Of a DNA stretch of 64,000 nt, positions 4,353-30,369 are shown piece by piece. The notes under the pieces were generated by a model. The model worked only from the letters and a program-made list of their open reading frames with translations, was not told the DNA's origin and ran no database searches. Position 1 is the first letter of the stretch. Each line of letters opens with the position of its first letter. The position numbers and the translations under genes are program-made. The stretch is from Labrenzia sp. R4_2 (lineage in GTDB: Bacteria; Pseudomonadota; Alphaproteobacteria; Rhizobiales; Stappiaceae): contig NZ_JAGHRJ010000004.1 of the NCBI RefSeq assembly GCF_017743865.1, positions 434,001-498,000 of the forward strand, read 5' to 3'.

Positions 4353-4364
4353 GTGGGGGCCTAT

Positions 4365-6404
4365 ATGAACTTGGCGACAGCTGTAATATCGTCAAACTAC
4401 AATTCTGTTCTTTTGATTTTTTCGCTTGCGCTTTGCATCGCCGGAGCGATTTTCTCTGTTCAACTCATTGGAAGGCTAAACAAGAGCGCCGGGAAAGCCC
4501 AGATCATTCGATTGATCTGGGCATCTTTGGTGCTTGGCACTTCGCTTTGGGCTGCCGGTGTGTTTGCCGCAGCCGCACCTATTCCATCGTCACAGACGGG
4601 ATTTCAATTTGCGACGCTCATGGCCGCCTTGTTTATCGCAACAACCGGCACTTTTGTGAGCATCTGGCTCCCCCAGTTGGCTACAAACCTAATGATGCGG
4701 GTCGTCAGCGGCATCGTTTATGGAGCAGGTGTTGCAACAACCTTTATGATGATTGGATTTTCCTACAAGGTTGCCGGCATGCAAGCAGGAGCCGGACTTT
4801 CAGCCATCTGGCCAATCATCCTTGGCACCGTGTTCGGAGCAGCGCTATTTCCTGTGGCCCTTGACGCAGCCGCTAAGACAAAACTGGTCCAGGGTGTCTG
4901 CTTTATCTCCCTTCCGGCAGTCGTGTGCCTCCTTGCCTCACCAGTCTCGGTTCCACCTGAAGTCCCATATTGGTTTCCGCCGGGAATGAACTTGTTGCCG
5001 GTGTCCCAGACCCTAGTTGTTTCTGTTTTGCTGCCCGCGCTCTGTGCTGTTTTCGCGGCATCTGGAGATGTACTGGAACATCATTACAAACACTTGTCCC
5101 GCAGAACCTACCAGCATTTGGCCTTGCAGGATCCCCTCACCCACCTTCCAAACCGGCATTATGTCGAGAACATTGCAGAGCAATTGCTCAAGGAAGCCAG
5201 CCAAAACCAAAAAATCTGCGCGGTGGTTCTTGTCAGCCTTGACCAGTTCAAAACAGTGAATGAACTGCACGGCTACGCGACCGGCGACGCAGTCTTGAAG
5301 CAAATGGCCAGCCTTTTCCGGGAAGAATTTGCAGACCCCGTAGTCATTTCAAGGTTTTATGGTGACGAGTTTCTCATTATAAACCCGACGGTAAACAGCT
5401 TGGACGAAGCAACCAGTTTAGCCCGTCAGGTCCGCGATATGGCCAGACGCCCCATACAAACAGCAACCTACCGGCTCTCAATTCAATGCAGCATTGGTGT
5501 CGCCGTATCGCCAAGGGATGGTGAGAACCTGGCAAAGCTGGTTCAGCGCGCAAACCTTGCGGCAAAACGGGCAAAATCCATTGGCGGGAATTCCATTCAA
5601 CCATATGTCACCGGCATGGAGGAAAACAATCGTTGGGAAGCCGCATTGGCGGCAGACCTTCGTTACGCCACTCTGGACAATCAGCTGAACCTTTTGTTCC
5701 AGAAACAGAACCAAACCAAAACCGGTGAACTTGTAGGCTACGAAGCCCTCGTACGATGGCGCCACGCGGAGAAGGGACAAATTCCTCCAGAGGACTTTAT
5801 TCCGATTGCCGAACGCTCAGGCATTATTTTGGATATTGGTGCCTGGGTGCTTCGGGAAGCCTGCCGCGCCGCTGCTGACTGGCAAGACCCGGTCGCAGTT
5901 TCCGTCAACGCATCCCCCTCGCAGTTTACCCGCAATGATTTCAGTGGCCTGGTCTCAACAGTGCTCATGGAAACAGGGTTGGAACCGCATCGTCTTGAAA
6001 TCGAACTGACCGAGAGCACCCCTATCGAAGACCACAGCCGAGTACTTCAAACCATTATTGCGTTACGCGAAATGGGAGTACGGGTGGCGATGGACGATTA
6101 TGGAACTGGTTATTCCTCTCTCAACACCTTGCAGGCATTTCCGTTCGACAAGTTGAAAGTCGACCGTGTTTTCACTCAATCTCTTGAGGACAGCCCGCAA
6201 GCCAGGGCGATCTTGCGCTCCGCTGTTTTGCTGGGACACAGCTTTGGTATACCCGTTATCGCCGAAGGCGTCGAAACGGAAAAGCAATTGAACTTTTTGA
6301 AAGAAATGGGTTGCCAGCAAGTGCAAGGCTTCCTCTTCGGAAAGCACCTATTGCCAGGCCAAATCAAGTCGGCACGAGAACCCGAAAAAAGACGCGCCGG
6401 ATAA
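4365..6404 (+). CDS. Membrane-bound c-di-GMP phosphodiesterase: degenerate MHYT-like sensor, GGDEF, EAL
   Basis: This 679-residue protein should degrade cyclic di-GMP at the inner membrane. The first ~240 residues form about seven membrane segments laid out like an MHYT sensor, but the expected MHYT motifs read WAAGVFA and ATTFMMIGFSY, lacking the metal-binding histidines. The GGDEF domain has YGDEF in its active loop (residues 332-336), so cyclase activity is doubtful. The EAL domain is intact (YEALVRW about 459-465, ELTES, DDYGTGYSS, EGVET), so hydrolysis is likely. ATG 4365 is preceded by GGGGG at 5 nt; a GTG at 4353 would add four residues. It stands directly upstream of the type I secretion/adhesin locus, suggesting control of that surface protein (inference). 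Confidence 0.85.
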   Translation: MNLATAVISSNYNSVLLIFSLALCIAGAIFSVQLIGRLNKSAGKAQIIRLIWASLVLGTSLWAAGVFAAAAPIPSSQTGFQFATLMAALFIATTGTFVSIWLPQLATNLMMRVVSGIVYGAGVATTFMMIGFSYKVAGMQAGAGLSAIWPIILGTVFGAALFPVALDAAAKTKLVQGVCFISLPAVVCLLASPVSVPPEVPYWFPPGMNLLPVSQTLVVSVLLPALCAVFAASGDVLEHHYKHLSRRTYQHLALQDPLTHLPNRHYVENIAEQLLKEASQNQKICAVVLVSLDQFKTVNELHGYATGDAVLKQMASLFREEFADPVVISRFYGDEFLIINPTVNSLDEATSLARQVRDMARRPIQTATYRLSIQCSIGVAVSPRDGENLAKLVQRANLAAKRAKSIGGNSIQPYVTGMEENNRWEAALAADLRYATLDNQLNLLFQKQNQTKTGELVGYEALVRWRHAEKGQIPPEDFIPIAERSGIILDIGAWVLREACRAAADWQDPVAVSVNASPSQFTRNDFSGLVSTVLMETGLEPHRLEIELTESTPIEDHSRVLQTIIALREMGVRVAMDDYGTGYSSLNTLQAFPFDKLKVDRVFTQSLEDSPQARAILRSAVLLGHSFGIPVIAEGVETEKQLNFLKEMGCQQVQGFLFGKHLLPGQIKSAREPEKRRAG

Positions 6405-6599: not shown

Positions 6600-8105
6600 A
6601 TGACAAACTCGAACGCATCTTCGACAACCGGAAAAGGTAGACGCAACGATCGGCAAACGCTCTCGCGATTGCTGATGGCGAGCGCTGCTTTGGTCGGCGT
6701 TTTGATGTCAGGCGCTCCCTCATACGCCCAGTCCCTCGAAGAAGCGATGGGCGCGGCATATGCCTTGAACCCCGGCCTGAAAGCAGAACGGTCCAGATAT
6801 CAAGCGACCAACCAAGGTGTCTGGACTGCGCGTTCAGAGTTCCTGCCGACAGTGACCGGCAGTTACATCGGCGAACACAATTCGTTCCGGAACACTCGGG
6901 ACACATTGTCAAGTGACCGGGAGTACTTCCACGAGCTTGGCGTCTCCATGTCGCAGACGCTCTTCCAGGGTTTTGCCGGTGTAAACCGTCTCAATCAGGC
7001 CCAAGAAGAAGCCCAATCCGGCCGCAACCAGCTCATCGGAGCCGAACAGACGCTGTTGTTCAACACTGCGGATGCTTATTTGCGTGTGGTCCGGGACCGC
7101 GGCGTACTGGCTTATTTGAAGTCTTACACAAATGTCGTGCAGCGTGAGGTGAATGCTGCACGAGCACGCTACAAATCTGGCGATGCCACGCGTACCGACA
7201 TCGAACAGGCTCTTGCCCGCCTTGCGGAGGCTCAAGGGAACAAGGACCAGGCTGTTGGCGATTTGGAAGCGTCAGAAGCGCTCTATGAGCGCCTAACCGG
7301 TCAAAAACCTGGAAAAATTGGCTGGCCGGGCATCCCCAAGACCATCGAACCTGCAGGTCTTGATGATGCCATCACAGTTGCTTTTCAGAACAACCCGTCC
7401 ATTCGCGCCGCGATGAATGACGCGCGGGCGGCAAGATATGCTGCGCGCGCCTCAGTTGGCGACATGCTGCCCCGGGTTTCCTTGGAAGGCGAATGGTCGA
7501 ATGGATACCGGCGCGATTTCAGCGACCGCGATCGGGAAGACTACCGGCTTGGCATTCGGGTGACGGCTCCGTTCTTCACCGGTGGTCGGAACATTGCATC
7601 TGTGAAGCGTGCCAAATACACCGCAGCGCAGGAAGAGTATGAGCTGGATGATACGCAACAGATTATCCGCGAGAACGTCATTCGGGCCATGAAACAGCGG
7701 GCGGCCGCGCGGCTTCGCGCAAAAGCCGGGGTGCGGGCAATCGAGGCCAACAAGCGCGCTGTCAAAGGTCTTCAAGTCGAGTTTGAAAGCGGACAGCGTA
7801 CATTGCTCAACGTGCTGGACGGCGAACGTGAGTTGCTGTTGAGCCAGGTCGACTACGTCCGGGCCCAGTATGACGCGAAAATCGCGGACTTTTTTCTGCT
7901 GGCCAATATCGGTCGGCTGGCACCTCAGCACTTTGCCATTATCGAAGAGCGGCCGGCGCCGCCGTCCCGGATTATCCCTCAATTCAATACGTGGGATTTG
8001 CGTCTCGGGCCGACAGAGAATGATCCGTTCCAATCTGGCGTCATTGAGATTGCAGAGACCGAACCGGTGATCATTCAAGCAGAAGCGCTGCCACCGATCC
8101 AATAG
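6600..8105 (+). CDS. tolC: TolC family outer membrane channel of type I secretion
   Basis: This 501-residue protein starts with a long signal region (about residues 20-43, ending APSYAQ) followed by SLEEAMGAAYALNPGLKAERS, the usual start of a TolC barrel-helix protomer. Two repeated coiled-coil halves are visible (ARARYKSGDATRTDIEQALARLAEAQ and VEFESGQRTLLNVLDGERELLLSQVDYVRAQYDAKIADFFLLANIGRL), diagnostic for the family. It would form the outer membrane exit for the protein encoded at 8176-15273. The upstream gap 6405-6599 is AT-rich and presumably contains the promoter; no strong ribosome binding site precedes ATG 6600. It may serve other pumps as well, since it is transcribed separately from the ABC/HlyD genes. 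Confidence 0.93.
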   Translation: MTNSNASSTTGKGRRNDRQTLSRLLMASAALVGVLMSGAPSYAQSLEEAMGAAYALNPGLKAERSRYQATNQGVWTARSEFLPTVTGSYIGEHNSFRNTRDTLSSDREYFHELGVSMSQTLFQGFAGVNRLNQAQEEAQSGRNQLIGAEQTLLFNTADAYLRVVRDRGVLAYLKSYTNVVQREVNAARARYKSGDATRTDIEQALARLAEAQGNKDQAVGDLEASEALYERLTGQKPGKIGWPGIPKTIEPAGLDDAITVAFQNNPSIRAAMNDARAARYAARASVGDMLPRVSLEGEWSNGYRRDFSDRDREDYRLGIRVTAPFFTGGRNIASVKRAKYTAAQEEYELDDTQQIIRENVIRAMKQRAAARLRAKAGVRAIEANKRAVKGLQVEFESGQRTLLNVLDGERELLLSQVDYVRAQYDAKIADFFLLANIGRLAPQHFAIIEERPAPPSRIIPQFNTWDLRLGPTENDPFQSGVIEIAETEPVIIQAEALPPIQ

Positions 8106-8175: not shown

Positions 8176-11100
8176 TCAGGAGTATTGGATACCCTCGATC
8201 TCGGCAAAGTCGACGCGGCCGCCGTCTGCAAGTTCGATGTAGCCACTGGAGTCCTGAGACAATGACACTTCACCGTTGAGTGGATCGACATTCTCAATGC
8301 TGCCATCGGTCACGGTCACCGACCAGTCGGTGCCGTATTCACCGATTTGGGTGCCATTCGTGCCGTCACCGAGATCAATGATATCAATCCAGTTTTCGCC
8401 AGCACCGCCGTAGATGGAGTCGTTGCCGTCGCCCAGCATGTAGGCAAAGACATCAGAACCGTCACCACCGTTCATGCTGTCGTCGCCGGAACCACCATCA
8501 AGAGTGTCATCACCCGAGCCGCCAAAAAGGGCGTCGTTGCCTCCCCCGCCACTTAAAGTGTCGTCGCCGCCCTCGCCGTACAAGGCGTCATTGGCATCTT
8601 CGCCAACCAGCTCATCGTCATCTTCCGTGCCGACCTGGAATGTTGGGAGTTCGATGACATTGCTGTCTTCATCGTCGCTCTCGTCATCATCATCGCCATC
8701 ATTGCTGAAGCGGCTAGCCGAGGAAGCTGCGAGCTCATTGTCGTCGTCGCGCTCATCGTCATCATCGTCGCGATCATCGTCATCATCATCAGCAGCAGCG
8801 ACTGGCGGCATATCATCTTCTGTATCGTCAACATCGATGACATCCAGCGTGATGGTCTCCGTATCTGAAAGTCCACCGCTGTCGGTCGCCGTTACGTCGA
8901 GTGTGATGCTCTGCTCTTCTTCAAAGTCCAGCGAGACACCGTCCTTGAGCTTGAGCATATAACCGCTGCCATCAGACACCACTTCAAACCGGTCATCAGA
9001 AACCGTAAAGGTATGCGTGTCGTCTGCGTCGGGATCAACAACTGACAAAGCCACAACACCAGCTCCGGCAGAGTTTTCGGTGACATAAATGCCGTCGTCG
9101 TCGGTGTGACCATGTGGTTTGCCGTCATCATCATCTTCATCATCGTGATCATGTGAGCCTTTCGGGCCATCTTTGATATGGCCGTGATGGTCATCATGAT
9201 GATCATCCGTATGACCGCCTTTGCCTTTATAGACGGCGTCACCCACGATGAGATCGGGCGCAGTATTACCGCCACCGTCACCATCCGTTACCTCAATCGG
9301 GAACGTTTCAGACGATTGCGACCCGTCGCTGGACGTTGCGGTAATGACAACATCGATGGTTTCACCCGGTGTCAGGGTTGCGCCATCGGCCACGGTCACA
9401 ACTCCGGTGTCTTCATCTATGTCGAACCGGCTGTCGTCGATCGTGTAGGTCACCGTGTCTGCGGCATCTGCATCTTCTGCAAATGCCGTCAACCCAACCA
9501 ACGCCCCCGCTGCAACAGAGGCGGCAACAAGGTTCTTGGCAGAATCGGCATCCTGAACCGGGCCGATATCTGTGTTCGGCACTGCCGGTCCATCATCATA
9601 TCCGTTGACGGTGATCTTCAGGTTTGCAGTGTCCGTGTTCCCACCACTGTCGGTGACGGTGTACGTGAACACTTCGACATCGGATTCCCCTCGGCCAAGC
9701 GCCTGCGCGGCGGGGCTGTCGGGATCAAGGATGTAGGTGTACGTACCGTCAGAGTTGATCAGCAGCGACCCGTAGTCACCTGGGATGGTCGAGCCTGGCG
9801 CATAGTCCTGGCCGTCGAAGGAAACATTCGTGACCGTCAGAGCACCTTCCGCATCCGTGTCATTGGTCAGGACATTGCCTTCCACTTTTGCTGTCTGACC
9901 AGAAGAGTTGGCTGTCTCCGTCGCGCCCCAACCACTGTCGTTCATGACATAGTCATCCGGAACAGACACAGTCCCCGTCTCCGGGTCGATCTGATAAACG
10001 CGGCCGCCATTGGTGAAGGCGTAGAGTTGCCCGCCATCGTCACCGACCAACCCAAAGGCGTTGGACACCGGCAAGGTCGCAACAACATCAATGGTCGCCC
10101 CGGTATCCGGATCGATTTCCACGATTTTGCCGTTGGATGTTGACAGGTACAAACTGCCATTGGCAAAGGCCAAATCACCGGCAGAACCATAGTCCATCTG
10201 CCCGATCGTGGTCAGGCTGCCATCGTTCACGTCGACTGAGTACAGTTTCCCAGAAGTGTCCGCAGCGTAGAGCGTACCATCCGGCCCAAACTCCAAAGCG
10301 TTCATCGACGTTCCGAACCGAGAGGTTGAAATGAGCGACGCCTCGCCAGTATCCGGATCAATGGAGTAAAGCTTACTGAAGCTGATGCCATAGAGATTTC
10401 CGGCACTGTCCAGCGCAATGTCGGTCATCGCCCCAACACCCGTCGACCCGATTACAACGTCGGAACCATCCGAACTGATTAGGTGAATTTCACCGTCATC
10501 GTCGCTGTAATAGAAAGATGTCTTGGTCAGCCCGACTGTCGCCGCATCGTCATTTGCCACTGGCGGCTCGTCAAACTCCGTGACATCAATCCGGAATGTC
10601 TCAGTAACACTGGATCCATCTGTAGAGGTTGCCGTGACGTCCAGATCGATAAACGGTGTTTGCTCCGCATCAAAGCTGGCATTGTCCGCAACGGTCACCA
10701 CACCGGTGTCCGGGTCAATCTCAAAACGCGGATCAGTGATTCCGTAGGTCACACTGTCCCCGGCATCCGGCTCATTTGCGAACGCCGTCAAACCAACAAC
10801 AGTGCCGGCCGTTGCGCCCTCGGCGATCACATTATCCGATGTGTCGCTATCAATGAGATCTGTGAGCGGTGTGTTGGTCTCATCGATGTCAATGACATCA
10901 ATCACAACCACTTCCGTATCAGACAAACCGCCCTGATCAGTCGCAGTTACTTCCAGGGTAACTTGCGTTTCAGTCTCATAATCGAGCGCCTGATTGTCCT
11001 TCAGCTTGAGCATGTACTTGTCGCCAGAGACAACAACTTCAAACCGGTCATCAGACACCGTGAACGTGTGGGTGTCGCCTATGTCAGGATCAATGACCGA

Positions 11101-14100
11101 CAACGGAACGATTTCCGCGCCGAAGAACTCTTCAACAACAGCTGTGCGATTGTCTGAGACGATGGAAACGCTGTCGATCAGTGCTCCGCCGTTGTTGTCA
11201 GACCCGATTTCAACAAAGGTCAGCGTGTTGGAGCCGTCACCGGATCCACCGACAATGTTGAAGTTGTAGGTCTGCCAGCCGGTTCCCGTGGTCGCCGGAT
11301 CAATCGTGTCGATCAGCTCGCCATTCCAGTAAACCTCGGCAACACTCTGACCGACACCGCCCCGAGACTTCATGTCAAACTGAAGCTCGTAGACCTGACC
11401 TTCCATCTGGCCTTCGATCTGCTGGGATGCCCAACCGTTCGTGACCGAAGCCAAATCCAGATGGTGATTGCCGTCAGTGGCACCGAAATTGTTGTGGCCC
11501 GCCTGATGGACATCAACGTTGTCGTAGGACCAACCTTCAATCGAATTCGGATCCTGGTACCAGCCAGATCCATCCGAGCCGCCCAACTGTCCGTCAAAGT
11601 TCTCAAAGCTGCCGTTGATGATGAACTGCTGCGAACCGCTTTCCAGCTCAACGATGAGATCGGGCGGTGCGTTACCGTCCGTGATATCGATCGAGAACGT
11701 CTGGCTGGAGGAAGATCCATCCGTTGAGGTCGCCTTTACAGTCAGGTCGACAGTTGGCTCGGCCTCGGCATCGAACTGAGCACCATCTTTGACAGTGATA
11801 ACACCCGAGGTCTCATCAATCTCAAAGCGGTCACCGCCGCCAGTCAGCTCATAGGTGACCGTATCGGTCGCATCTTCGTCCTCGGCAAAAGCCGTGATGC
11901 CAGTGTTTTCGCCACCATCTGAAGACTCGGAGATCGTGTTGTCGCTTGTGTCGACATCCGAAACCGGGCCGATGTCGAACTCATTTTCATCACCCACTTC
12001 AACCGTGAAGGTCTTCGTTGTGGACGTCCCGTCTGTGGACGTCGCCTTGACCGTGACGTCAATCGTCGGCGTGGTCTCGCGGTCGATATCCACACCCGGA
12101 GCGACCGAGATCACACCAGAAGTCGGGTCGATCACGAAAGGAGAGTTCTGATCTACGATCTCATAAGTGACATCGTCAGACGTATCCGGATCGGTCGCAA
12201 ACGCTGTCACACCAACAACGGTGCCAGCATCGGAATTTTCCGCAACCAGGTTCGCAGTAGCGTCGCTATCTGTAAGCGGGCCGATTGGTTCTGCACCCTC
12301 GTCAATGTCGATGACGTCGATCACCACTGTTTCCGTATCGGACAGACCACCGGTGTCGGTTGCTGTGATCTGGACGGTCACCTGTTGCTCGGTCTCATAA
12401 TCGAGCGCCTGGTCGTCTTTCAGCTTCAGCAGATACTTGCCGTCGGCGGCAACCACCTCGAAGCGGTCGTCGGACACTGTGAAAGTATGCGTGTCGCCCA
12501 CATCAGGATCGATGACGGAGAGCGGAACAACCTTGGCACCTTCCAATTCTTCATAGACGCCGATCCGGTTTGTGCCGGTCAGTTCGACGTTATCGATGAA
12601 CGCGCCATAGGTGTTGTTGTCCTCACCGGTTTCACGGAACTCAAGGACGTCATTGCCGCCTGTTCCGACAACCTGGACCTCAAGCGTTTCCCAGTTGCCG
12701 AAAGCTGGATCGACAGTGGAAACCAGTTCACCGTTCCAATAAACCTCGACGGTGTTGGAGGCATCATCTCTGCGCGCCTGGACATCGAATGAAAGGTCAT
12801 AAACCTGACCCACCGACGTCTCGACGGTTTGGGAAATCGAATTGACGTTCTTTTCAGAATCCAACTCCAGATGCTGGTCACCCTCGGTGGCTTTGATACC
12901 GCCGAAGTTGTCCCAGACCTCCATTTTGCCGTTACTCGTCCACGCACCAGAACTGTCTTCAGAAAATTGATTCCACTTTCCGGTGGCAACGTCGAAGGAC
13001 TCGAACGAACCGTTTTTGATGAGGTTGGTGCCGATGTCGCCATACTCAACAACGAGATCCGGCGGCTCGTTGCCGTCTGTGACATCAATCGAAAAAGTGT
13101 TACTGGACGAAGATCCATCCGTGGACGTTGCCTTGACGGTTACGTCGACAGTCGGTTCTGTTTCCGCATCAAACTGCGCACCGTCTTTCACGGTGATGAC
13201 GCCGGTCGTCTCGTCGATCTCGAAGCGATCGTTGCCATCGGTCAACTCATAGGTGACGGTATCAGTCGCGTCAGGATCTTCAGCAAATGCCGTGACACCG
13301 ACAACCGTCCCGCCAACAGCGTCTTCATTAACGAAATTATCTGCATTGTCTGTGTCTGTGACCGGGCCGATGTCAAACTCATCCTCATCGCCGACTTCAA
13401 TACGAAATGTCGCTTGGGATGTCGAACCATCCGTGGACGTGGCCTGAACCGTTACATCAAAGAACGGCGTGGTTTCCCGGTCGATCTCGGCGCCAGGTGC
13501 GACACTGATAACGCCAGTAACCGGGTCGATGACAAACGGCGTGTCTCCGATGATTTCATAAGTGACCGTATCGGTAGCGTCCGGATCCTCAGCAAATGCC
13601 GTAACACCGACAACCGTTCCCGGATCAGAGTTTTCAAGGATAAAGTTGTCTGTCGTATCCGTGTCGACAACAGGCCCGATCGAGAACTCATCACCAACTT
13701 TGACGCGGAATATTGCCTCGGATGTCGACCCATCCGTAGACGTTGCCTTCACGGTTACGTCGACAGTCGGTTCTGTTTCCGCATCAAACTGCGCACCGTC
13801 TTTCACGGTGATGACGCCGGTCGTCTCGTCGATCTCGAAGCGATCGTTGCCATCGGTCAACTCATAGGTGACGGTATCAGTCGCGTCAGGATCTTCAGCA
13901 AATGCCGTGACACCGACAACCGTCCCGCCAACAGCGTCTTCATTAACGAAATTATCTGCATTGTCTGTGTCTGTGACCGGGCCGATGTCAAACTCATCCT
14001 CATCGCCGACTTCAATACGAAATGTCGCTTGGGATGTCGAACCATCCGTGGACGTGGCCTGAACCGTTACATCGAAGAACGGTGTGGTTTCGCGATCAAT

Positions 14101-15273
14101 CTCGGCGCCGGGTCCGACGCTGATAACACCCGTAACCGGGTCGATGACAAACGGTGTATCGCCTACGATTTCGTAAGTCACCGTATCGGTTGCATCCGGA
14201 TCCTCGGCAAACGCCGTTACTCCGACAACCGTGCCTGGATCAGAATTTTCGAGAATAAAGTTGTCTGTTGTGTCCGTGTCTACAACAGGCCCGATCTGAA
14301 ATTCTGTATTATCGTCTCCAACTTGGATGACAAAAGTCTCAACGACAAACGATCCATCGCTGGAAGTCGCCTGCACCGTCACACTGATAGCCGGCGTTTC
14401 TTCTCGATCAATGACAACTCCGGGACCAACAGAAATCACACCGGTCTCAGGATCGATAACAAATGGCGAGTCGCCGACGATGGAATAGGTAACGTCATCT
14501 CCATCAGGATCTTCTGCGAACGCGACAACCCCGACAGTTGTTCCAGGATCTGCATTTTCTTCGACAAAGTTTACGTCGAGATTGATATCAGTCAGCGGGC
14601 CGATCGGTTCGCCGAGATCGTCATCGCCGCCGCCGTCGCCATCACCGCCATCGTCATCGTCGCCGGCATCATCGCCGCCGTCGTCACCGTCATCGTCGGC
14701 CAGAACGGTCGTGCCGCCATCGCCGCCGCCTCCACCGCCGCCAATGCCGTCACCGATGCCATCGTCACTTGTCGGAATGCCTTGACCGCCAAGATTGAAT
14801 TGAGAAAGCCCGGCATCAAGGCCGCGCGCTTCGGGAACATCCCCGCCTCCGAGACCACCAACATCGCCCAAACCACCGTCAGATGTTTCCGCAACATCCT
14901 GAAGACCATCCGGGAGCGGCACGTTATCATTGCGGTCCAGACCCAAGCCGTTGCTAGGACCATCGTTACCTGCTCCGCCATTCAAGCCGCCGTCACCGCC
15001 AAGACCGTCACCATCGTGAAGAGAGGAACCGCTTCCTTCGTATTCCAATGGCACCGCCTGGAAGAGGTTGGCAACCGTTGCCTCACCAGTGTCCTCTGGA
15101 TTGATGGACAAGGAGTAGTCGTTGCCATCCGCGGGCTTGTACGGATCACCGGCCTGAGCTTCCGCACGGGCAGCATTTGGCGAGTTCGCACCTGAATTGG
15201 TTCGTGCAGCCGCGTCTGCGCCCGCGCCTTCAGTCGGTTTGCCAGATGTTTTCGGTGTGTCGGTATCAGCCAT
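8176..15273 (-). CDS. Giant cadherin-repeat RTX protein, type I secreted (putative adhesin)
   Basis: This 2365-residue acidic protein lacks an N-terminal signal peptide and ends in RTX repeats. In order: a low-complexity Gly/Asp-rich N-terminus (1-230); many ~100-residue cadherin-like repeats (VVGVTAFAEDPDATDTVTYE...IDETTGVITV); two lectin-like DUF642-type domains (NGSFESF about 745-905; NGSFENF about 1211-1375); a beta-propeller-like segment (about 1581-1790); a VCBS-like repeat (about 1790-1890, LINSDGTYTYILD); a His/Asp-rich stretch (about 2014-2064); an Asp-rich linker (about 2150-2200); and GGxGxD nonapeptides (about 2225-2290) before a C-terminal secretion region. Calcium-stabilised adhesion or biofilm function is inferred. 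It is divergent from its dedicated ABC/HlyD genes. GGAGCTT lies about 9 nt before ATG 15273. Confidence 0.9.
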   Translation of the reverse strand: MADTDTPKTSGKPTEGAGADAAARTNSGANSPNAARAEAQAGDPYKPADGNDYSLSINPEDTGEATVANLFQAVPLEYEGSGSSLHDGDGLGGDGGLNGGAGNDGPSNGLGLDRNDNVPLPDGLQDVAETSDGGLGDVGGLGGGDVPEARGLDAGLSQFNLGGQGIPTSDDGIGDGIGGGGGGGDGGTTVLADDDGDDGGDDAGDDDDGGDGDGGGDDDLGEPIGPLTDINLDVNFVEENADPGTTVGVVAFAEDPDGDDVTYSIVGDSPFVIDPETGVISVGPGVVIDREETPAISVTVQATSSDGSFVVETFVIQVGDDNTEFQIGPVVDTDTTDNFILENSDPGTVVGVTAFAEDPDATDTVTYEIVGDTPFVIDPVTGVISVGPGAEIDRETTPFFDVTVQATSTDGSTSQATFRIEVGDEDEFDIGPVTDTDNADNFVNEDAVGGTVVGVTAFAEDPDATDTVTYELTDGNDRFEIDETTGVITVKDGAQFDAETEPTVDVTVKATSTDGSTSEAIFRVKVGDEFSIGPVVDTDTTDNFILENSDPGTVVGVTAFAEDPDATDTVTYEIIGDTPFVIDPVTGVISVAPGAEIDRETTPFFDVTVQATSTDGSTSQATFRIEVGDEDEFDIGPVTDTDNADNFVNEDAVGGTVVGVTAFAEDPDATDTVTYELTDGNDRFEIDETTGVITVKDGAQFDAETEPTVDVTVKATSTDGSSSSNTFSIDVTDGNEPPDLVVEYGDIGTNLIKNGSFESFDVATGKWNQFSEDSSGAWTSNGKMEVWDNFGGIKATEGDQHLELDSEKNVNSISQTVETSVGQVYDLSFDVQARRDDASNTVEVYWNGELVSTVDPAFGNWETLEVQVVGTGGNDVLEFRETGEDNNTYGAFIDNVELTGTNRIGVYEELEGAKVVPLSVIDPDVGDTHTFTVSDDRFEVVAADGKYLLKLKDDQALDYETEQQVTVQITATDTGGLSDTETVVIDVIDIDEGAEPIGPLTDSDATANLVAENSDAGTVVGVTAFATDPDTSDDVTYEIVDQNSPFVIDPTSGVISVAPGVDIDRETTPTIDVTVKATSTDGTSTTKTFTVEVGDENEFDIGPVSDVDTSDNTISESSDGGENTGITAFAEDEDATDTVTYELTGGGDRFEIDETSGVITVKDGAQFDAEAEPTVDLTVKATSTDGSSSSQTFSIDITDGNAPPDLIVELESGSQQFIINGSFENFDGQLGGSDGSGWYQDPNSIEGWSYDNVDVHQAGHNNFGATDGNHHLDLASVTNGWASQQIEGQMEGQVYELQFDMKSRGGVGQSVAEVYWNGELIDTIDPATTGTGWQTYNFNIVGGSGDGSNTLTFVEIGSDNNGGALIDSVSIVSDNRTAVVEEFFGAEIVPLSVIDPDIGDTHTFTVSDDRFEVVVSGDKYMLKLKDNQALDYETETQVTLEVTATDQGGLSDTEVVVIDVIDIDETNTPLTDLIDSDTSDNVIAEGATAGTVVGLTAFANEPDAGDSVTYGITDPRFEIDPDTGVVTVADNASFDAEQTPFIDLDVTATSTDGSSVTETFRIDVTEFDEPPVANDDAATVGLTKTSFYYSDDDGEIHLISSDGSDVVIGSTGVGAMTDIALDSAGNLYGISFSKLYSIDPDTGEASLISTSRFGTSMNALEFGPDGTLYAADTSGKLYSVDVNDGSLTTIGQMDYGSAGDLAFANGSLYLSTSNGKIVEIDPDTGATIDVVATLPVSNAFGLVGDDGGQLYAFTNGGRVYQIDPETGTVSVPDDYVMNDSGWGATETANSSGQTAKVEGNVLTNDTDAEGALTVTNVSFDGQDYAPGSTIPGDYGSLLINSDGTYTYILDPDSPAAQALGRGESDVEVFTYTVTDSGGNTDTANLKITVNGYDDGPAVPNTDIGPVQDADSAKNLVAASVAAGALVGLTAFAEDADAADTVTYTIDDSRFDIDEDTGVVTVADGATLTPGETIDVVITATSSDGSQSSETFPIEVTDGDGGGNTAPDLIVGDAVYKGKGGHTDDHHDDHHGHIKDGPKGSHDHDDEDDDDGKPHGHTDDDGIYVTENSAGAGVVALSVVDPDADDTHTFTVSDDRFEVVSDGSGYMLKLKDGVSLDFEEEQSITLDVTATDSGGLSDTETITLDVIDVDDTEDDMPPVAAADDDDDDRDDDDDERDDDNELAASSASRFSNDGDDDDESDDEDSNVIELPTFQVGTEDDDELVGEDANDALYGEGGDDTLSGGGGNDALFGGSGDDTLDGGSGDDSMNGGDGSDVFAYMLGDGNDSIYGGAGENWIDIIDLGDGTNGTQIGEYGTDWSVTVTDGSIENVDPLNGEVSLSQDSSGYIELADGGRVDFAEIEGIQYS
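13136..13458. repeat. 323-bp perfect direct repeat, copy 1 (within the RTX gene)
   Basis: This stretch matches 13751-14073 with no mismatch by eye; the copies are offset by 615 bp (205 codons, two cadherin-like repeats). The flanks on both sides differ mostly at synonymous positions. Confidence 0.9.
13751..14073. repeat. 323-bp perfect direct repeat, copy 2 (within the RTX gene)
   Basis: This is the second copy of the identical segment at 13136-13458. It keeps the reading frame, so copy-number change would add or remove a pair of cadherin-like repeats from the protein. Confidence 0.9.
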
Positions 15274-15447: not shown

Positions 15448-17223
15448 ATGGTCAGTTTTATCAGCAATGCTTTAGCTAACACTGCGTTACCTCAGCTGAA
15501 ATTTCATTCATCTGAGACAGGAGAGCAAGTTAAAGCCCCAAATTTGCCGCGCTCGGTGGTAATGGCCTCGATACTTATAAATGTATTGGGCTTGGCGATG
15601 CCCCTGACAATTCTTCAGGTATATGACCGAATTCTTCCAAACCAGGCTATCGATACACTGGTCGTTCTAATTGTCGGGCTTGGGATCGTCCTGGCGGTGG
15701 ATGCGGTATTGAAGATTGCTAGATCATTTGTTGTCGCCTGGTCAGCAGCTTCCTTTACACACAAAGCAAACATGGAAGCGACGCACCGTCTGCTCTGCTC
15801 CCGTTCTGATGCCGTGACCGATGCCAGTGTTTCCAAGCATCTGGACTCTCTGAAGTCACTTCAGTCCCTGGGAGACCAGTACGGCGGACCGGCGCGACTT
15901 TTGGCGATCGATCTCCCGGCTAGCCTTATTTTTCTCGTTGTCCTGTTTCTCATCGGCGGCCCGATCGGTTTCATCCCGCCGATCTTGTTGTTGATTTTCG
16001 TGTTGCGGACTGCTCACCTGAATTCCAAACTCAATACGCTCGTTGAAAAACGCGCTGTCCAGGACCAGCGCAAATACGATTTCATTTTTGAAGTCCTGTC
16101 CGGGCTCAACACGATCAAGGCAATGGCGCTTGAACCCGTGATCCTCCGGCGATTTGAAAGACTGCAAACCCAGGTCTCCCGCCTCGGTTACGACCAGATC
16201 GACCTGAACAACAAGGCGCGCAACAGCAGCGGCTTTTTCACTGTCCTGACAACGGTATGCGTTGTATCGGCTGGTGCATTGCTGGTGATGGGAGGCTTCA
16301 TAAGCATCGGTGCTGTTGCTGCCTGTACGCTCCTTGCGGGCCAAGTCGTCCAGCCTCTTTTGCGGGGTATCAACCACTGGACGGAGATGCAGCGGGTCAA
16401 GCACGACTATGGTGCCGCTCAATCCCTTTTTGATCTGCCAGTTCAAAACAGGCACCAATCGCGGAATATTCCGATCATCGGCAATGTACAGATCCAAAAT
16501 GCTGGATACGATTCAAGGCATGACGTGATCGTCCCGATCCACGGACTGAACCTGTCCGTCAATGCTGGAGAAACGATAGCCTTTGAAGGCAAAGATGGTA
16601 GCGGACGATCAACACTCTCCCGATTGATTTCAGGCAGCCTGGAACCGACTTCGGGATCAGTCATGCTTGATGGTCATGATCTTTACGGTGAAGATCATTG
16701 GGGTCTTCGGAAACACATTGCCTACGTCGGCAACGATTCTGAAATGTTCGCCGGAACAATCTTGCAGAATCTGACTTTGTTTGGGTCTCAGTCGACGCCG
16801 CAGACCGCACGAATGGCCGCAGAACTCATCGGCCTGGAAAAAGACATTCACCTGCTCCCGCTGGGCTACGACACACAATTGGGTAACACCATCGAGGAAA
16901 ATCTCACGGACTCCATGATCCAGCGGATCGCGATTGCACGTGCCTTGGCCCGAGAACCAAAAATCTTGATCCTGGATGATGCAAACGGCGCCCTCGATCA
17001 CCGCAGCGAAGCTGAGCTTGCGGAAGGACTCAAACGCATCAAAGGCCAGCTCACGATGATCATTGTCAGCCACCGCCCATCCTTCCGGGCAATTGCTGAC
17101 AAGCAGTATCTGGTGGAGGACGGGAAATTGAAATCAGTACCGATAAAACCCGCCACAACAAAAAAATACAAGCTTCAGCCGCGTATACGCAAAGAAGCGC
17201 CAAAAATGAGCCAAGGAGCCTGA
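15448..17223 (+). CDS. Type I secretion ABC permease/ATPase, first half-transporter, degenerate NBD
   Basis: This 591-residue protein is a PrtD/HlyB-like exporter half with a six-helix membrane domain (about residues 35-310) and a nucleotide-binding domain (about 345-570). The fold motifs are recognisable but key residues differ: Walker A is GKDGSGRST with Arg387 in place of the Lys; the Q-loop position is Asn429 (YVGND); the signature reads LTDSM (486-490) instead of LSGGQ; the residue after the Walker B Asp is Asp511, not Glu. The H-loop His542 is kept. A strong AGGAGG lies 8 nt before ATG 15448. It is followed after 1 bp by a second half-transporter, so the two probably form a heterodimer exporting the RTX protein encoded divergently. 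Confidence 0.88.
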   Translation: MVSFISNALANTALPQLKFHSSETGEQVKAPNLPRSVVMASILINVLGLAMPLTILQVYDRILPNQAIDTLVVLIVGLGIVLAVDAVLKIARSFVVAWSAASFTHKANMEATHRLLCSRSDAVTDASVSKHLDSLKSLQSLGDQYGGPARLLAIDLPASLIFLVVLFLIGGPIGFIPPILLLIFVLRTAHLNSKLNTLVEKRAVQDQRKYDFIFEVLSGLNTIKAMALEPVILRRFERLQTQVSRLGYDQIDLNNKARNSSGFFTVLTTVCVVSAGALLVMGGFISIGAVAACTLLAGQVVQPLLRGINHWTEMQRVKHDYGAAQSLFDLPVQNRHQSRNIPIIGNVQIQNAGYDSRHDVIVPIHGLNLSVNAGETIAFEGKDGSGRSTLSRLISGSLEPTSGSVMLDGHDLYGEDHWGLRKHIAYVGNDSEMFAGTILQNLTLFGSQSTPQTARMAAELIGLEKDIHLLPLGYDTQLGNTIEENLTDSMIQRIAIARALAREPKILILDDANGALDHRSEAELAEGLKRIKGQLTMIIVSHRPSFRAIADKQYLVEDGKLKSVPIKPATTKKYKLQPRIRKEAPKMSQGA

Positions 17224-17224
17224 C

Positions 17225-19411
17225 ATGTCCCTGGCAGCGTTTGAAAACACCTCCGCCTATATTCAAGGTTCAGACCCGTCTACCCGGCGCTTAAATCTGG
17301 CAAGCCGGGTCCGCCAGCAAGCAGGCACCCATATTGACCGAAACACGGCAGCTGAAGCATGCCTCTTGCCAGTGCTGGAAGCACTTGGGTGGGACGGCAT
17401 GGAGCGGCACCTGTTTGAGGCTTTGCCACATCTTGAGGGCATCACTGAAATCTATGATTTGCGGGCCGTGCTTACCCGGCTCAATTACCGGGTCACCAGC
17501 TCCTCAAGGCCGATCAAGCAACTCACAGCAGAGCAATTTCCCTGCTTGTTAAAGGTCGGACAGAATGTCTGTGTCGGCCTTGGACCAAGCGGGGACGGCC
17601 GACTTCGTGTTTTCAGCGGTGAAGCTCAGCAAACGGTAAATCTTGATTACTCTGCCCTGAAGGATGCAGAGCTGTTCCTGATTGCCGAAGATGACCCAAC
17701 AGCGACTGCCGGTTTTAAACACTGGTCATCCAGATTGTTTCACAGATTTCGGGGTACGCTGACCTCGATTATGGCAATCGGCTTTCTTGCCAACCTGTTG
17801 GCGCTCGGCCTGCCCTTGTTTGTGATGAACGTCTACGACAAAGCGATTGGCGCAAAGTCCGTTTCCGTTCTCATTACACTCATGATCGGCATTGCGGTGA
17901 TCTTGTGTATGGATTGGCTGGTCAAGGGAACCAAATCCCGCCTCCAAGCATACCTTGGCGCACGACTGGACGCTGTCGTTGCGAATACGACCTTCCGCCA
18001 TTTCTTGCACCTGCCTCTGCCGTTGACGACTTCAGCACCAATTGGCGCGCAGATCACCCGCTTGAAGCAGTTTGACGGTGTCCGGGAAATCTTTCACGGC
18101 AACCTTGCTAATGCTCTGATTGATTTGCCGTTTTCCGCACTGTTCGTGGTGGTTCTTTCACTGATCGGCGGCCCGCTCGCGCTGCTTCCGCTCGGTTTGC
18201 TGGGTCTCTACATCGTTGCCGCGCTTCTCATCGTTCCGCGGATGAAACGTGCGATCAACCTTGCCGGGGAGGCCAAATCCCGCGTCCAGAACATCACGGT
18301 AGAAATCCTGTCAAAGCGCGATGCGATCCAGAATTTGTCCGCAGATGACGTTTGGATCGACAAGTTTCGTGCCCTGTCAGCAGATTTCGCGCAAAAGAAC
18401 CTGAAAACAAAACACCTGTCTCAAATAATGCAGGTCATCTCGCAAATGATGATGACCCTCTGCGGCATCGGTGTTCTGGGTTTCGGGGCCATCATGGTGA
18501 TGAACCAAAGCCTCACACAAGGCGCCTTGATCGCAGTGATGGCTTTGTCCTGGCGCGCGATGAACCCAATGCATCAGGCCTTCTTGAGCTTCTCACAGCT
18601 TGGCCAGGCCCAGCAAACGATCGAACGGATCAACGGTCTCTTGAAGATCGACATGGAACGGCAACCGGGCAAACTCCCGAGCTTGCATCGTCAGTTCCAA
18701 GGTACGGTCCGCTACTCCAACGTTGTGCTTCGCTATCCGGCCCGCCAGGAACCGGCATTGCGGAATTTCTCTTTACAGGTCGAACAAGGCGCAGTCGCTG
18801 CGATCACAGGCCCAAGTGGATCAGGGAAAACTTCTCTGGTTCGTGCGACGCTGGGGCTTTACCGGCCACAGATGGGGGCGGTCTTGGTGGATGACCTCGA
18901 TATCCGCCAGCTGGATCCGGGTGAATGGCGCCATGCAATTGGCTATGCACCCGAACACTACGATTTCTTCTACGGGACCATCGCCCAGAACTTCCGGATG
19001 GCCAATCCGCAAGCTGACAATGATCAGGTCCGCGGCGCATTCGAAGACTTTGGCCTCAACAACTACGCAGAATTGCTTCCTCAAGGAGTTGAGACCCGTC
19101 TCACAGGCCAGCTTCTGCAAGTGCTTCCAGACAACGTGAAACAGCGGATCCTGCTTGCAAGGGCCTTCGTACGGCCGGCCTCAATCTACGTTCTGGATGA
19201 TCCAGCCGGCAATCTAGATGTTGATGGCGACAAGCTGCTGATGAAAAAAATTGAACAGGTTCGCGGTAAATCAACCGTCATCCTGACCACTTATCGGCCA
19301 AGCCACATGCGGATCGCTGACCAGCTCGTCTACATGCAGAACGGAATGGTCACCATGGCAGGTCCGCCATCAGAGATTTTGGACGACGTCCTGAAACAGC
19401 AATCGAAGTAA
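17225..19411 (+). CDS. Type I secretion ABC permease/ATPase, second half-transporter with C39-like domain
   Basis: This 728-residue protein starts with a region resembling a C39 peptidase-like domain (about residues 35-155) without the catalytic DCG Cys or HF His, as in HlyB-type transporters that do not cleave their substrate. A membrane domain (about 175-465) and NBD (about 495-720) follow. Walker A is intact (GPSGSGKTS, Lys535), but the Q-loop has Glu577, the signature is LPDNV (634-638), the catalytic Glu is Asp659 and the H-loop His is Tyr690 (TTYRPS). The defects do not complement those of the first half-transporter in the usual one-good-site pattern. AAGGAG precedes ATG 17225, just after the upstream stop. 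Confidence 0.88.
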   Translation: MSLAAFENTSAYIQGSDPSTRRLNLASRVRQQAGTHIDRNTAAEACLLPVLEALGWDGMERHLFEALPHLEGITEIYDLRAVLTRLNYRVTSSSRPIKQLTAEQFPCLLKVGQNVCVGLGPSGDGRLRVFSGEAQQTVNLDYSALKDAELFLIAEDDPTATAGFKHWSSRLFHRFRGTLTSIMAIGFLANLLALGLPLFVMNVYDKAIGAKSVSVLITLMIGIAVILCMDWLVKGTKSRLQAYLGARLDAVVANTTFRHFLHLPLPLTTSAPIGAQITRLKQFDGVREIFHGNLANALIDLPFSALFVVVLSLIGGPLALLPLGLLGLYIVAALLIVPRMKRAINLAGEAKSRVQNITVEILSKRDAIQNLSADDVWIDKFRALSADFAQKNLKTKHLSQIMQVISQMMMTLCGIGVLGFGAIMVMNQSLTQGALIAVMALSWRAMNPMHQAFLSFSQLGQAQQTIERINGLLKIDMERQPGKLPSLHRQFQGTVRYSNVVLRYPARQEPALRNFSLQVEQGAVAAITGPSGSGKTSLVRATLGLYRPQMGAVLVDDLDIRQLDPGEWRHAIGYAPEHYDFFYGTIAQNFRMANPQADNDQVRGAFEDFGLNNYAELLPQGVETRLTGQLLQVLPDNVKQRILLARAFVRPASIYVLDDPAGNLDVDGDKLLMKKIEQVRGKSTVILTTYRPSHMRIADQLVYMQNGMVTMAGPPSEILDDVLKQQSK

Positions 19412-19467: not shown

Positions 19468-20808
19468 ATGGCAGCCAAAGATACCTCAGATCCGCTTCGC
19501 AAAGCCGTTTATGGCCGAGTAGGATTGCCACTCGAACTGGAGGACGGGGTTCCACCGGCCTTCTACACCCGGCTGTTGATCGGTCTCACGGTTGCGACCC
19601 TGGCACTGCTGCTATGGGCAGCCATTGGTCAGATCCGTGAAGTCGCCAACACGATCGGTGAAATCACGCCTGCAGGTCAGATCCTTGCTGTCGAACACCT
19701 GGAGGGCGGTATTGTCAGTGAGATCCTCGTTGAAGAAGGCCAACTCATCATGGCAGGCGACCCGATCGCTCGCCTCGAGAAAGAAGACACTACTGCCGAA
19801 CTTGGCCGCATTCAGAGCCGCCTGAGTTATCTGGAACTCGAAGAAGAGCGGCTAAGAGCCCAAGAGTTCAGTGATCCGAACACAGTTGGACTGCGGCTCG
19901 ACCCGGCAGTCAGCGGTTTGAGCACACAACAACGGGCGGCACTCACGGCAAACCGCAGAGCAGTCGCCGATGAACAAGATGCATATACGGCTCGTGTCGC
20001 ACAAAAACGTGCGGAAGTGGCCAGCCTGGAGGCTCAGGTTGTTCTGCAACGGTCACAAGTCGAGTTGGAACGGGAAAAATTCCAGATTCAGGAAAACCTT
20101 CTGAAAGATGGCTACACATCCCGCCGCCGGTATCTTGAATCAAAAGGTGAATACCAACGTTCCCAGGTAACGCTGGAACAGCTCGTCGGCAATCTGGCGC
20201 AAGCCCGTGAAATGCTGACCGAAGCTCAGGCGAGCCTGAACCAGGCGGGCGCTGAGGTGAACCGGGATGTGGCCGATGAACGCGCTCGAATTGCTCAAGA
20301 GCGGGCTGAGCTGGCACAGGAAATCGCCAAACTCGAAGACAGGCAGAATCGCTTGTTCGTAAGGGCTCCAGTTGATGGCTACATCAAAACACTGGGTCAA
20401 ACCGGACGTGGTGCTGTTGTGAATCCGGGCGACATGATCGCGGAGATCGTTCCGCAGACCGAAAGCATGGTGGCTGAGGTGAAGGTCAATCCACGCGACA
20501 TCGGCCACATCAATGTGGGCGACAAGGCTGAAATCACGATCACCAGCTATGACCCGAACATCTATGGGACGATCGTCGCGGAGGTGGACACCATCTCAGC
20601 ATCCAGTTTCCAGGATGAATATGGCGAGTACTATTTCAAAGCTGACCTTGGCTTTCCGGGCAACACGATCGGCACCGGTAATGTAACCAGCCCCGTCCGG
20701 CCGGGCATGCAGGTGAATGCACAGATTGTGACAGGATCCAAATCAGTCCTTGCCTATCTGCTGAACCCAGTGACCCGCGCGATGCGCACGGTGTTCTCCG
20801 AACGCTAA
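19468..20808 (+). CDS. HlyD family type I secretion periplasmic adaptor
   Basis: This 446-residue membrane fusion protein has one N-terminal transmembrane helix (about residues 33-53, LLIGLTVATLALLLWAAIG). A lipoyl half-motif (VEHLEGGIVSEILVEEGQLIMAGDPIARLE), a long coiled coil (about 100-300) and the C-terminal beta-barrel region (NPGDMIAEIVPQTESMVAEVKVNPRDIGHINVGDKAEITITSYD) follow. It bridges the two ABC proteins encoded immediately upstream and the TolC-like pore. GAGGAAG precedes ATG 19468; the gap after the second ABC gene is 56 bp, so the three genes are probably one transcript ending at the terminator 20832-20857. Confidence 0.94.
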   Translation: MAAKDTSDPLRKAVYGRVGLPLELEDGVPPAFYTRLLIGLTVATLALLLWAAIGQIREVANTIGEITPAGQILAVEHLEGGIVSEILVEEGQLIMAGDPIARLEKEDTTAELGRIQSRLSYLELEEERLRAQEFSDPNTVGLRLDPAVSGLSTQQRAALTANRRAVADEQDAYTARVAQKRAEVASLEAQVVLQRSQVELEREKFQIQENLLKDGYTSRRRYLESKGEYQRSQVTLEQLVGNLAQAREMLTEAQASLNQAGAEVNRDVADERARIAQERAELAQEIAKLEDRQNRLFVRAPVDGYIKTLGQTGRGAVVNPGDMIAEIVPQTESMVAEVKVNPRDIGHINVGDKAEITITSYDPNIYGTIVAEVDTISASSFQDEYGEYYFKADLGFPGNTIGTGNVTSPVRPGMQVNAQIVTGSKSVLAYLLNPVTRAMRTVFSER

Positions 20809-20879: not shown

Positions 20880-21911
20880 TCAGTGGGATGCTGGCGTCAC
20901 CATCGCACTGATGGTGTCTTGAACGTTCAAAACGCCCAAGGGCTTGCCATCGCCGTTGACAACGCAGCACTCGCCTTGACCGGTTTCGGCAAACTTCTTG
21001 GCTGCTTCTTCCAGCATGATCCCGCTCTGGACGGTCAAACCGCCCTCGAGGGTCTTTGTCTTGTCCATGACTGTATCGACGAGGATCACACGCCCACGGT
21101 TCACCTCCTTGACAAAATCGGCGATGTACTCATCCGCAGGCCGCAGGACAATCTCTTGTCCAGTGCCTTGCTGAATGACTGCACCATCGCGCAAGATCGC
21201 AATCTTGTCGCCGAGCCGAAGAGCTTCATCCAGGTCGTGAGTGATGAAGACGATTGTCTTATGAAGCTCTTCTTGAAGATCAAGCAAAACAGTCTGCATA
21301 TCCATACGGATCAACGGATCAAGCGCTGAGAACGCTTCGTCCATTAGCAAAATGTCCGCATCGTTTGTCAGAGCCCGGGCAAGACCGACACGCTGCTGCA
21401 TACCGCCCGACAACTGGTTCGGATAATGGTCTTCAAAGCCTTCCAAGCCAACACGAGCGATCCAGCGGGCAGCCCGTTCTTCAGCCTCCTTCATGGAGAC
21501 GCCCTGAATTTCCAGGCCGTAGACGGTGTTTTTCATCACGGTCCGGTGGGGCAGAAGCGCGAACTTCTGGAAAACCATCGCTGTTTTGTGGCGACGGAAT
21601 TCCCTCAGCTCACCCTGAGACATCTTACAGACGTCTTCATCACCGTAGAGCACTTCCCCGTCTGTCGGATCGATCAGCCGGTTGATGTGCCGGATCAAGG
21701 TGGATTTCCCCGACCCGGACAACCCCATCACCACCTCGATCTTACCGCCAGGCATCGAGATATTGATGTTGTTCAAGCCCAAGACGTGATTGTGCTTTTC
21801 GTTGAGCTCGGCTTTGGACATGCCGTCCTTGACGAGCTGCACCATGTCTTTGCCGTTTGGACCAAAAATCTTGTAAAGATTTTTAATCTCAATGCCTGTC
21901 GCCTCACCCAT
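20880..21911 (-). CDS. proV: Glycine betaine/choline ABC importer, ATP-binding protein
   Basis: This 343-residue ATPase is of the ProV/OpuAA type. Walker A (GLSGSGKST), Q-loop (VFQKFALLPHRTV), signature (LSGGMQQRVGLARAL), Walker B (ILLMDEAFSALDPLIR) and H-loop (ITHDLDEA) are canonical. The region after residue 260 looks like a shortened tandem-CBS module (GECCVVNGDGKPLGVLNVQDTISAM), which in this family senses ionic strength or nucleotides. The ATG at 21909-21911 overlaps the permease stop by 8 bp. It is the last gene of a proX-proW-proV order. Betaine, choline or proline betaine are the likely solutes. Confidence 0.92.
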   Translation of the reverse strand: MGEATGIEIKNLYKIFGPNGKDMVQLVKDGMSKAELNEKHNHVLGLNNINISMPGGKIEVVMGLSGSGKSTLIRHINRLIDPTDGEVLYGDEDVCKMSQGELREFRRHKTAMVFQKFALLPHRTVMKNTVYGLEIQGVSMKEAEERAARWIARVGLEGFEDHYPNQLSGGMQQRVGLARALTNDADILLMDEAFSALDPLIRMDMQTVLLDLQEELHKTIVFITHDLDEALRLGDKIAILRDGAVIQQGTGQEIVLRPADEYIADFVKEVNRGRVILVDTVMDKTKTLEGGLTVQSGIMLEEAAKKFAETGQGECCVVNGDGKPLGVLNVQDTISAMVTPASH

Positions 21912-22791: not shown

Positions 22792-22824
22792 CACTCTCGT
22801 CCCGTTTCTTTGCCCCTCAATGAA

Positions 22825-22848
22825 GAGCCCGCATCGTGATGCGGGCTC
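22825..22848. terminator. Intercistronic hairpin between proX and proW
   Basis: The arms GAGCCCGCATC and GATGCGGGCTC are perfect complements around a 2-nt centre. In the transcribed (minus) direction no U-tract follows, so it is more likely a stabilising or partially attenuating hairpin than a full terminator. It would favour binding protein over permease. Confidence 0.6.
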
Positions 22849-22865
22849 CTTTTCGCTTCAACGGA

Positions 22866-30260: not shown

Positions 30261-30369
30261 CTTGGAGACCGCTTGTCTTGCAGCCCCCCGCCGGGGGATC
30301 TGAGTGCACACGGCAATTACAGATCAAACAGGTATCGCTTTCAACCGAGAAGTCTCCAAAGCGTAGATT

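Follow-up and report, generated by a model that had tools for sequence, protein, structure and literature searches.

Introduction

ABC transporters in which one of two ATPase sites is degenerate, and type I secretion systems with more than one ATP-binding cassette (ABC) protein, have both been described. HlyB, the exporter of Escherichia coli HlyA, acts as homodimers, three per complex, with hydrolysis required for secretion (PMC9751043, PMC5018854). The MARTX four-component type I systems have two ABC proteins, RtxB and RtxE, both apparently needed, and one very large RTX cargo (PMC3034196). The heterodimeric transporters TM287/288, TmrAB and TAP are built from two half-transporters with asymmetric sites, one of which is kept in working order, and among the full-length or heterodimeric ABC proteins of humans 21 of 29 have one degenerate site (PMC7756269). 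Here we describe an apparent type I secretion locus in a 64,000-nt stretch of the Labrenzia sp. R4_2 genome (contig NZ_JAGHRJ010000004.1, positions 434,001 to 498,000 of the forward strand; hereafter the window), in which two adjacent, different half-transporters, ABC1 and ABC2, have no canonical composite ATPase site between them.

The locus shares features with each of these systems. Its closest family is the LapB/LssB type, with which it has in common the domains of the ABC proteins, the best family match and the presence of HlyD, TolC and a large repeat protein, although it has two different subunits, neither with LSGGQ, and both score below the family cut-off. Sequence matches to HlyB (structure 7sgr) reached 202.4 bits for ABC1 and 189.9 bits for ABC2, and ABC2 also matched TM_0288 (139.5 bits). 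RtxB/RtxE are set apart by gene order, B-D-E with the adaptor gene lying between the ABC genes (PMC3034196), compared with ABC1-ABC2-HlyD here. A LapB-like ABC protein, a giant repeat protein and LapG-type proteases in the genome recall the Lap-type adhesin systems (LapA/LapB/LapC/LapE, LapD, LapG); the LapG-type genes, however, are on other contigs and a neighbouring GGDEF-EAL protein falls far under the LapD cut-off. In the literature searched, which left out most subscription papers, we found no account of a type I exporter whose two sites are both non-canonical. While two-ABC type I systems are thus already known, to judge from its sequence the variant in which neither site is canonical appears new. 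The preliminary description of the window, whose author knew of no account of this exact arrangement, is supported on this narrower point and not on the presence of two ABC proteins as such.

Both composite ATPase sites of the pair are non-canonical

ABC1 (591 residues; 15448..17223, + strand) and ABC2 (728 residues; 17225..19411, + strand) are encoded by open reading frames (ORFs) on the same strand, spaced by one base. Both proteins have the Pfam ABC_membrane (PF00664) and ABC_tran (PF00005) domains above the cut-offs, and the top NCBIfam match of both is TIGR03375, the LapB/LssB-type type I secretion ABC model, whose cut-off of 693.1 bits was reached by neither (351.9 bits for ABC1; 448 bits, over residues 45-724, for ABC2). 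ABC1 is without an N-terminal peptidase-like domain. ABC2 has an N-terminal extension that can be aligned to the LssB peptidase-like region, and a Pfam domain search gave no C39 peptidase match in ABC2. PHROGs matches of ABC1 were to generic ABC families only. Among the best 120 homologues listed for each, the two proteins have separate families, and the nearest named matches were from Labrenzia/Roseibium.

Motif positions were read from a single MAFFT alignment, where the ABC1 and ABC2 motifs share columns and where we also included four canonical paralogues from the same genome (L002, L004, L005 and L006, of six loci); these have LSGGQ or LSGGE, LDE and H all present in the same columns. In ABC1 (all on the + strand), the Walker A Lys is replaced by Arg387 (GKDGSGRST, 16588..16614), the Q-loop residue is Asn429 (16732..16734), LTDSM takes the place of LSGGQ as the signature (residues 486-490, 16903..16917), the catalytic Glu following Walker B is Asp (D510-D511, 16975..16980) and the H-loop His542 is retained (17071..17073). 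In ABC2 (likewise +), Walker A is intact (GPSGSGKTS, 18809..18835), while the Q-loop residue is Glu577 (18953..18955), the signature is LPDNV (residues 634-638, 19124..19138), the catalytic Glu is again Asp (D658-D659, 19196..19201) and the H-loop residue is Tyr690 (19292..19294). Using the definition of composite sites given in PMC7756269, site I consists of R387, N429, D510-D511 and H542 of ABC1 with LPDNV of ABC2, and site II of K535, E577, D658-D659 and Y690 of ABC2 with LTDSM of ABC1. Neither composite site is canonical.

These results bear out the preliminary description in several respects: the two adjacent half-transporter ORFs, every non-consensus residue named for ABC1 and ABC2, and the conclusion that neither site is canonical were all recovered. 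Its premise that heterodimeric exporters keep one canonical site also agrees with the human ABC proteins, in which only one of two sites is degenerate (PMC7756269). It had raised sequencing error in the motif codons as a concern. The motifs of both proteins are identical in three further genomes, G001, G004 and G007 (ABC1 identity 97, 99 and 98%), the sole deviation being a flanking Val/Ile in the ABC2 Walker B of G001. Misalignment is rejected, and sequencing error unlikely, in view of these close relatives, the clade-wide rows described below and the canonical paralogues, with their shared columns and residues.

Derived residues are shared across the window's clade

In the Roseibium-like clade to which the window belongs, Arg387, Thr487 and His542 of ABC1 are present in all 34 rows and Asn429 in 32, and position 510 is Asn in 23 and Asp in 11. 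Among the 27 ABC2 rows, Lys535, Asp658 and Tyr690 are invariant, position 577 is Glu in 23 and Asp in 4, and position 659 is Asp in 15 and Asn in 12. At one locus (L149) both catalytic Glu positions are Asn and both ORFs are intact. A sister clade, with many Roseibium names, shows a nearly reversed state. There, in rows selected from the best 120 listed, ABC1 has the Lys in 44/49, the Glu in 49/49 and the His in 46/49, and the Glu, His and Gln positions of ABC2 are occupied by Asn, Gln and Asp in 5/5 selected rows (compare L152-L156). We also noted a eukaryote-labelled match (P0156, from a Tetraselmis set) with motifs exactly as in bacterial Stappia; this is probably bacterial contamination.

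The pair belongs to a widespread family

To place the pair in a wider setting, genomes were scanned with an ABC2 alignment and 80 listed loci, of a larger number of matches, were inspected. ABC1 lies no more than 1.5 kb upstream of ABC2 in 77 of these 80 listed loci (split into two frames in L098), with two loci at contig edges and one, L067, without ABC1; in L067 a GGDEF-EAL gene occupies the place upstream of ABC2. HlyD is encoded on the same strand in 72 of the 75 listed loci that have an ABC1 frame. Of 385 genomes of the class, 43 have a match of ABC2 type (E <= 1e-150); of 398 genomes of the phylum, 60 have one of ABC1 type (E <= 1e-110). In nine of the 60 (best E about 1e-111 to 1e-116) the match is probably ABC2 or a canonical protein, so that 51 remain. 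Among the listed loci, those with names come from several orders of Alphaproteobacteria, from Magnetococcales and from one gammaproteobacterial symbiont. The pair is consequently no isolated oddity, and the possibility considered in the preliminary description that homologues of each gene widely occur alone is contradicted by the pairing.

The ABC1 and ABC2 trees are strongly correlated (mirror-tree r = 0.958 over 89 loci, with 0 of 1000 permutations as high), a value in which shared species history stays in. The ABC1 scan of the phylum also gave 20 long-frame matches (1049-1484 residues), of which 18 were examined as L211-L228, together with L158 from genome G083; the match in G492, at a contig edge, was left out. 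All 18 of L211-L228 are single-frame fusions of ABC1 followed by ABC2 (frames of 1068-1384 residues, the ABC2 part being short in L213), and their genomes belong to classes other than that of the window; L158, from inside the class, is likewise a fusion in this order. Because of the fusions, the mirror-tree correlation and the gene pairing, the natural reading is that ABC1 and ABC2 would form one heterodimer.

We then took a census of motif states at 110 loci (L029-L138, some of them near-identical), in 101 of which the nucleotide-binding domains (NBDs) of both proteins were readable. None of the 101 ABC1 or 101 ABC2 sequences has S-G-G at the signature. The second signature position is Pro in 83 ABC1 and 71 ABC2 sequences, and the fourth is Gly in 90 and 56, respectively. 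The core residues (K/DE/Q/H) are intact in 81 ABC2 and 20 ABC1 sequences and in neither protein of 19 pairs, including some whose ABC2 departs from the core by Glu to Asp alone (L046 and L052, for instance). No pair among the 101 has a site combining the core K/DE/Q/H with S-G-G. When the signature rule was relaxed to Ser, Ala or Thr in the second position with Gly in the fourth, one site was acceptable in 9/101 pairs, the window's not among them. The string LSGG is present in L044, L057 and L059, but off the aligned signature column. Both NBDs could be read in 17 fusions. Every one of these has an intact ABC2 core and a replaced ABC1 H-loop His; the ABC1 signature has Pro in 16 and the ABC2 signature has Ser in 15 (LSAG, LSSG or LSTG).

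From this census of pairs and fusions, asymmetry is the rule in the family: ABC2 provides the good core of one site, which is closed by the ABC1 loop, usually L-P-x-G, and the site closed by the sometimes more normal loop of ABC2 tends to be without a full core. A uniformly dead family is ruled out by the intact ABC2 core in 81/101 pairs and in all readable fusions. In the window's Roseibium-like clade, the plausible site II typical of the wider family is lost too.

At two other sets of loci the ABC1 Walker A is altered further. In L103 and L106, from two Cohaesibacter species, the ABC1 Walker A is gone (GNRVSDDHH and GNQPRDDHQ) and that of ABC2 is kept. L139 and L140 are deeper, highly divergent pair-like loci in two genomes of the same genus, with very long branches and an ABC1 without a normal Walker A; they were included in our first tree and, as labels allowed, in the 89 mirror-tree loci, and stand outside the 101-pair count.

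Both nucleotide-binding domains are under purifying selection

We estimated the ratio of nonsynonymous to synonymous substitution rates (dN/dS; Nei-Gojobori) between the window and L143, L146 and L147, most remoter comparisons being synonymously saturated. For ABC1, values were 0.041-0.071 for the NBD and 0.029-0.035 for the transmembrane domain (TMD); for ABC2, they were 0.005-0.031 for the NBD and 0.018-0.028 for the TMD; and for HlyD, 0.022-0.033. Both NBDs are thus under strong purifying selection, that of ABC1 being the least constrained of the parts compared. These values rule out a pseudogene.

Of 20 comparator ABC frames, 16 contained LSGG[QE]; the four without the exact string were left out of the tree. 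A quick maximum-likelihood analysis of 87 rows set the 32 ABC1 rows apart by one branch (SH-aLRT 97) and the 32 ABC2 rows by another (SH-aLRT 99); the 23 canonical rows fell outside both, scattered rather than in one group. With four long-branch rows omitted, a single clade of ABC1 plus ABC2 gave a p-AU (approximately unbiased test) of 0.309; therefore, one signature loss before the ABC1/ABC2 split and two parallel losses both fit.

Likely cargo and genomic context

An HlyD-type adaptor, a TolC-type channel and a gene for a repeat-rich, putative cargo lie beside the ABC pair, and the locus encodes no further ABC exporter of the type I kind. The HlyD-family type I periplasmic adaptor (446 residues; 19468..20808, +) scored 319.1 bits against TIGR01843 (cut-off 208.65), and the TolC-family outer-membrane channel (501 residues; 6600..8105, +) scored 257.9 bits against TIGR01844 (cut-off 225.15). 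The likely cargo is a giant protein of 2365 residues encoded divergently (8176..15273, - strand), with Pfam cadherin repeats and two DUF642 domains. Its C-terminus has RTX-like repeats, as read from the translation; the Pfam search gave no RTX match. Cadherin and RTX repeats are Ca2+-binding families.

The preliminary description had suggested looking for the same pair near cadherin/RTX genes in other genomes; a large divergent ORF beside the pair proved regular within the genus and less so beyond it. At 14 same-genus loci, such a divergent ORF is present in 13 and HlyD, on the same strand, in 9; in L155, HlyD sits past the giant ORF. Outside the genus, a divergent ORF of at least 500 residues within 1.5 kb is present in just 26 of the 51 listed loci with at least 2 kb of sequence upstream of ABC1. 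The length of the same-genus giant ORF (window 8176-15273; L143-L156) varies from 1392 residues in L151 to more than 2900 in L146, where it is cut by the sequence end, which suggests repeat-number change. One genome (G003) has two pairs of differing type (L144 and L145), each adjoining its own divergent giant ORF.

Within the genus, a PrtD-type canonical ABC protein scored above cut-off in 15 of 16 genomes examined, and the remaining one (G020) has a weaker canonical-like match (375.7 bits). In the 5.66-Mb genome of the window, the PrtD-type gene is on another contig with its own adjacent HlyD-like gene (107.6 bits). Of the same-genus genomes examined for LapG-type proteases (PF06035), 9/9 encode them; the window's genome has two such genes, both on contigs other than the window's.

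Possible mechanisms of export

We tentatively favor the reading, drawn from these comparisons, that the pair may be an ATP-binding-gated heterodimeric exporter of the adjacent giant cadherin/RTX protein in which hydrolysis is very slow or absent. The outcomes named in the preliminary description, an unusual mechanism, very slow hydrolysis and gating of export for a surface-retained giant protein, all figure among the readings weighed here. The ABC1-ABC2 heterodimer would be the inner-membrane engine, with the giant protein leaving via HlyD and TolC. ABC2 would keep binding Mg-ATP, as the conserved Lys535 and Asp658 suggest; ATP binding would close the NBDs and thereby open the export path; and there would be no or very slow hydrolysis at ABC1-ABC2, the gate being reset by an occasional hydrolysis event or by nucleotide exchange. 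Movement of the cargo might then come mostly from outside, by Ca2+-driven folding of the cadherin/RTX domains or another passive ratchet; that the cadherin/RTX-like repeats are a candidate driving force is speculative. As to the pair itself, the most likely state is one in which ATP is still bound but hydrolyzed slowly or not at all, because the ABC2 H-loop residue is Tyr clade-wide (the HlyB H-loop mutant H662A has an activity of <0.1%, PMC9751043, and binds ATP and dimerizes with secretion abolished, PMC5018854) and because sites with Glu changed to Asp seem to be slow. The strongest version of the idea, that a cargo of more than 2000 residues is exported by an ATP-binding-gated channel without any ATP hydrolysis by its own transporter, pulled by Ca2+-dependent folding or a passive ratchet, seems unlikely.

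Several observations weigh against the favored reading. Degenerate human sites with Glu changed to Asp seemingly do hydrolyze ATP, if slowly (PMC7756269), and at both catalytic positions of the window's pair the residue is Asp rather than Asn. Export of HlyA cannot do without hydrolysis, and a Ca2+ pull has been excluded for it, though a Ca2+ ratchet was reported for CyaA (PMC5018854). The dN/dS of the ABC1 NBD, somewhat above that of its own TMD, fits some relaxation. L067 is the only one of the 80 listed loci with ABC2 and no upstream ABC1, and the link to the cargo is one of proximity, seen outside the genus at only about half of the listed loci (26/51).

The same Asp residues lend themselves to a serious, if minority, possibility, namely that the heterodimer hydrolyzes enough ATP for export by an unusual arrangement, with Asp659 as the base, the Thr/Pro signature loops still closing on the gamma-phosphate, and substitutes for the H- and Q-loops. 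The strong purifying selection on both NBDs is in keeping with this, and since the family has L-P-x-G loops yet keeps the ABC2 core in 81/101 pairs, a replaced loop is probably tolerated. It fits poorly, however, with Asn at ABC2 position 659 in 12/27 and at ABC1 position 510 in 23/34 clade rows, with Asn at both catalytic positions in L149, and with the H-loop Tyr in 27/27 rows, at the position where the HlyB His mutant is <0.1% active (PMC9751043). Energy might instead be supplied in trans, ABC1-ABC2 being a non-hydrolyzing channel that is joined in a mixed multi-dimer complex by a canonical type I ABC protein whose gene lies elsewhere. PrtD-type proteins are above cut-off in 15/16 same-genus genomes, with the weaker match in G020, and HlyB has three dimers of which one is conducting (PMC9751043); but the PrtD-type gene of the window's genome is accompanied on its own contig by an HlyD-like gene, the ABC1-ABC2 locus has its own HlyD and TolC, and the natural fusions point to a self-sufficient heterodimer, which makes a mixed complex distinctly improbable.

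Less probable still is a role for the pair in gating, sensing or regulating a surface-retained protein that is exported otherwise. Erosion of both ATPase sites would suit such a role, and LapG-type proteases in every genome examined suggest that the genus does have large proteins of the retained kind; a full type I set with no other such ABC exporter is nevertheless present at the locus, and both LapG-type genes are on other contigs. That the genes are simply decaying, with the motif changes due to drift, is hardly credible. The motif losses are stepwise across relatives and differ by clade, and the ABC1 NBD evolves somewhat faster than the ABC1 TMD, as decay would have it, but the ORFs are intact, the derived residues are identical in 34/34 and 27/27 rows, and dN/dS of 0.005-0.071 in both NBDs counts as refutation unless the values are wrong.

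The source of energy for type I secretion is still argued, with HlyA found to depend on hydrolysis and a Ca2+ ratchet reported for CyaA (PMC5018854). Given a constrained natural exporter with both sites eroded, and relatives in which erosion has gone less far, the question of driving force would become directly testable, the exporter's intact genes with eroded sites being a natural test of whether such export needs ATP splitting. In addition, the family supplies type I engines that are heterodimeric, in some cases single-chain, and have the signature replaced in both halves, which makes them useful for learning what LSGGQ does.

Neighboring genes

Upstream of the TolC gene, a GGDEF-EAL protein (4353..6404, +), assigned by its Pfam domains, scored 115.4 bits against the LapD model (cut-off 1020), and its membership in the locus is uncertain. 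On the other side, the HlyD gene is adjoined by genes for a glycine betaine type ABC importer (20880-23858, - strand), comprising an ATPase, a permease and an OpuAC binding protein. Further along, an AsmA-family protein of 905 residues is encoded at 27594-30311 (- strand).

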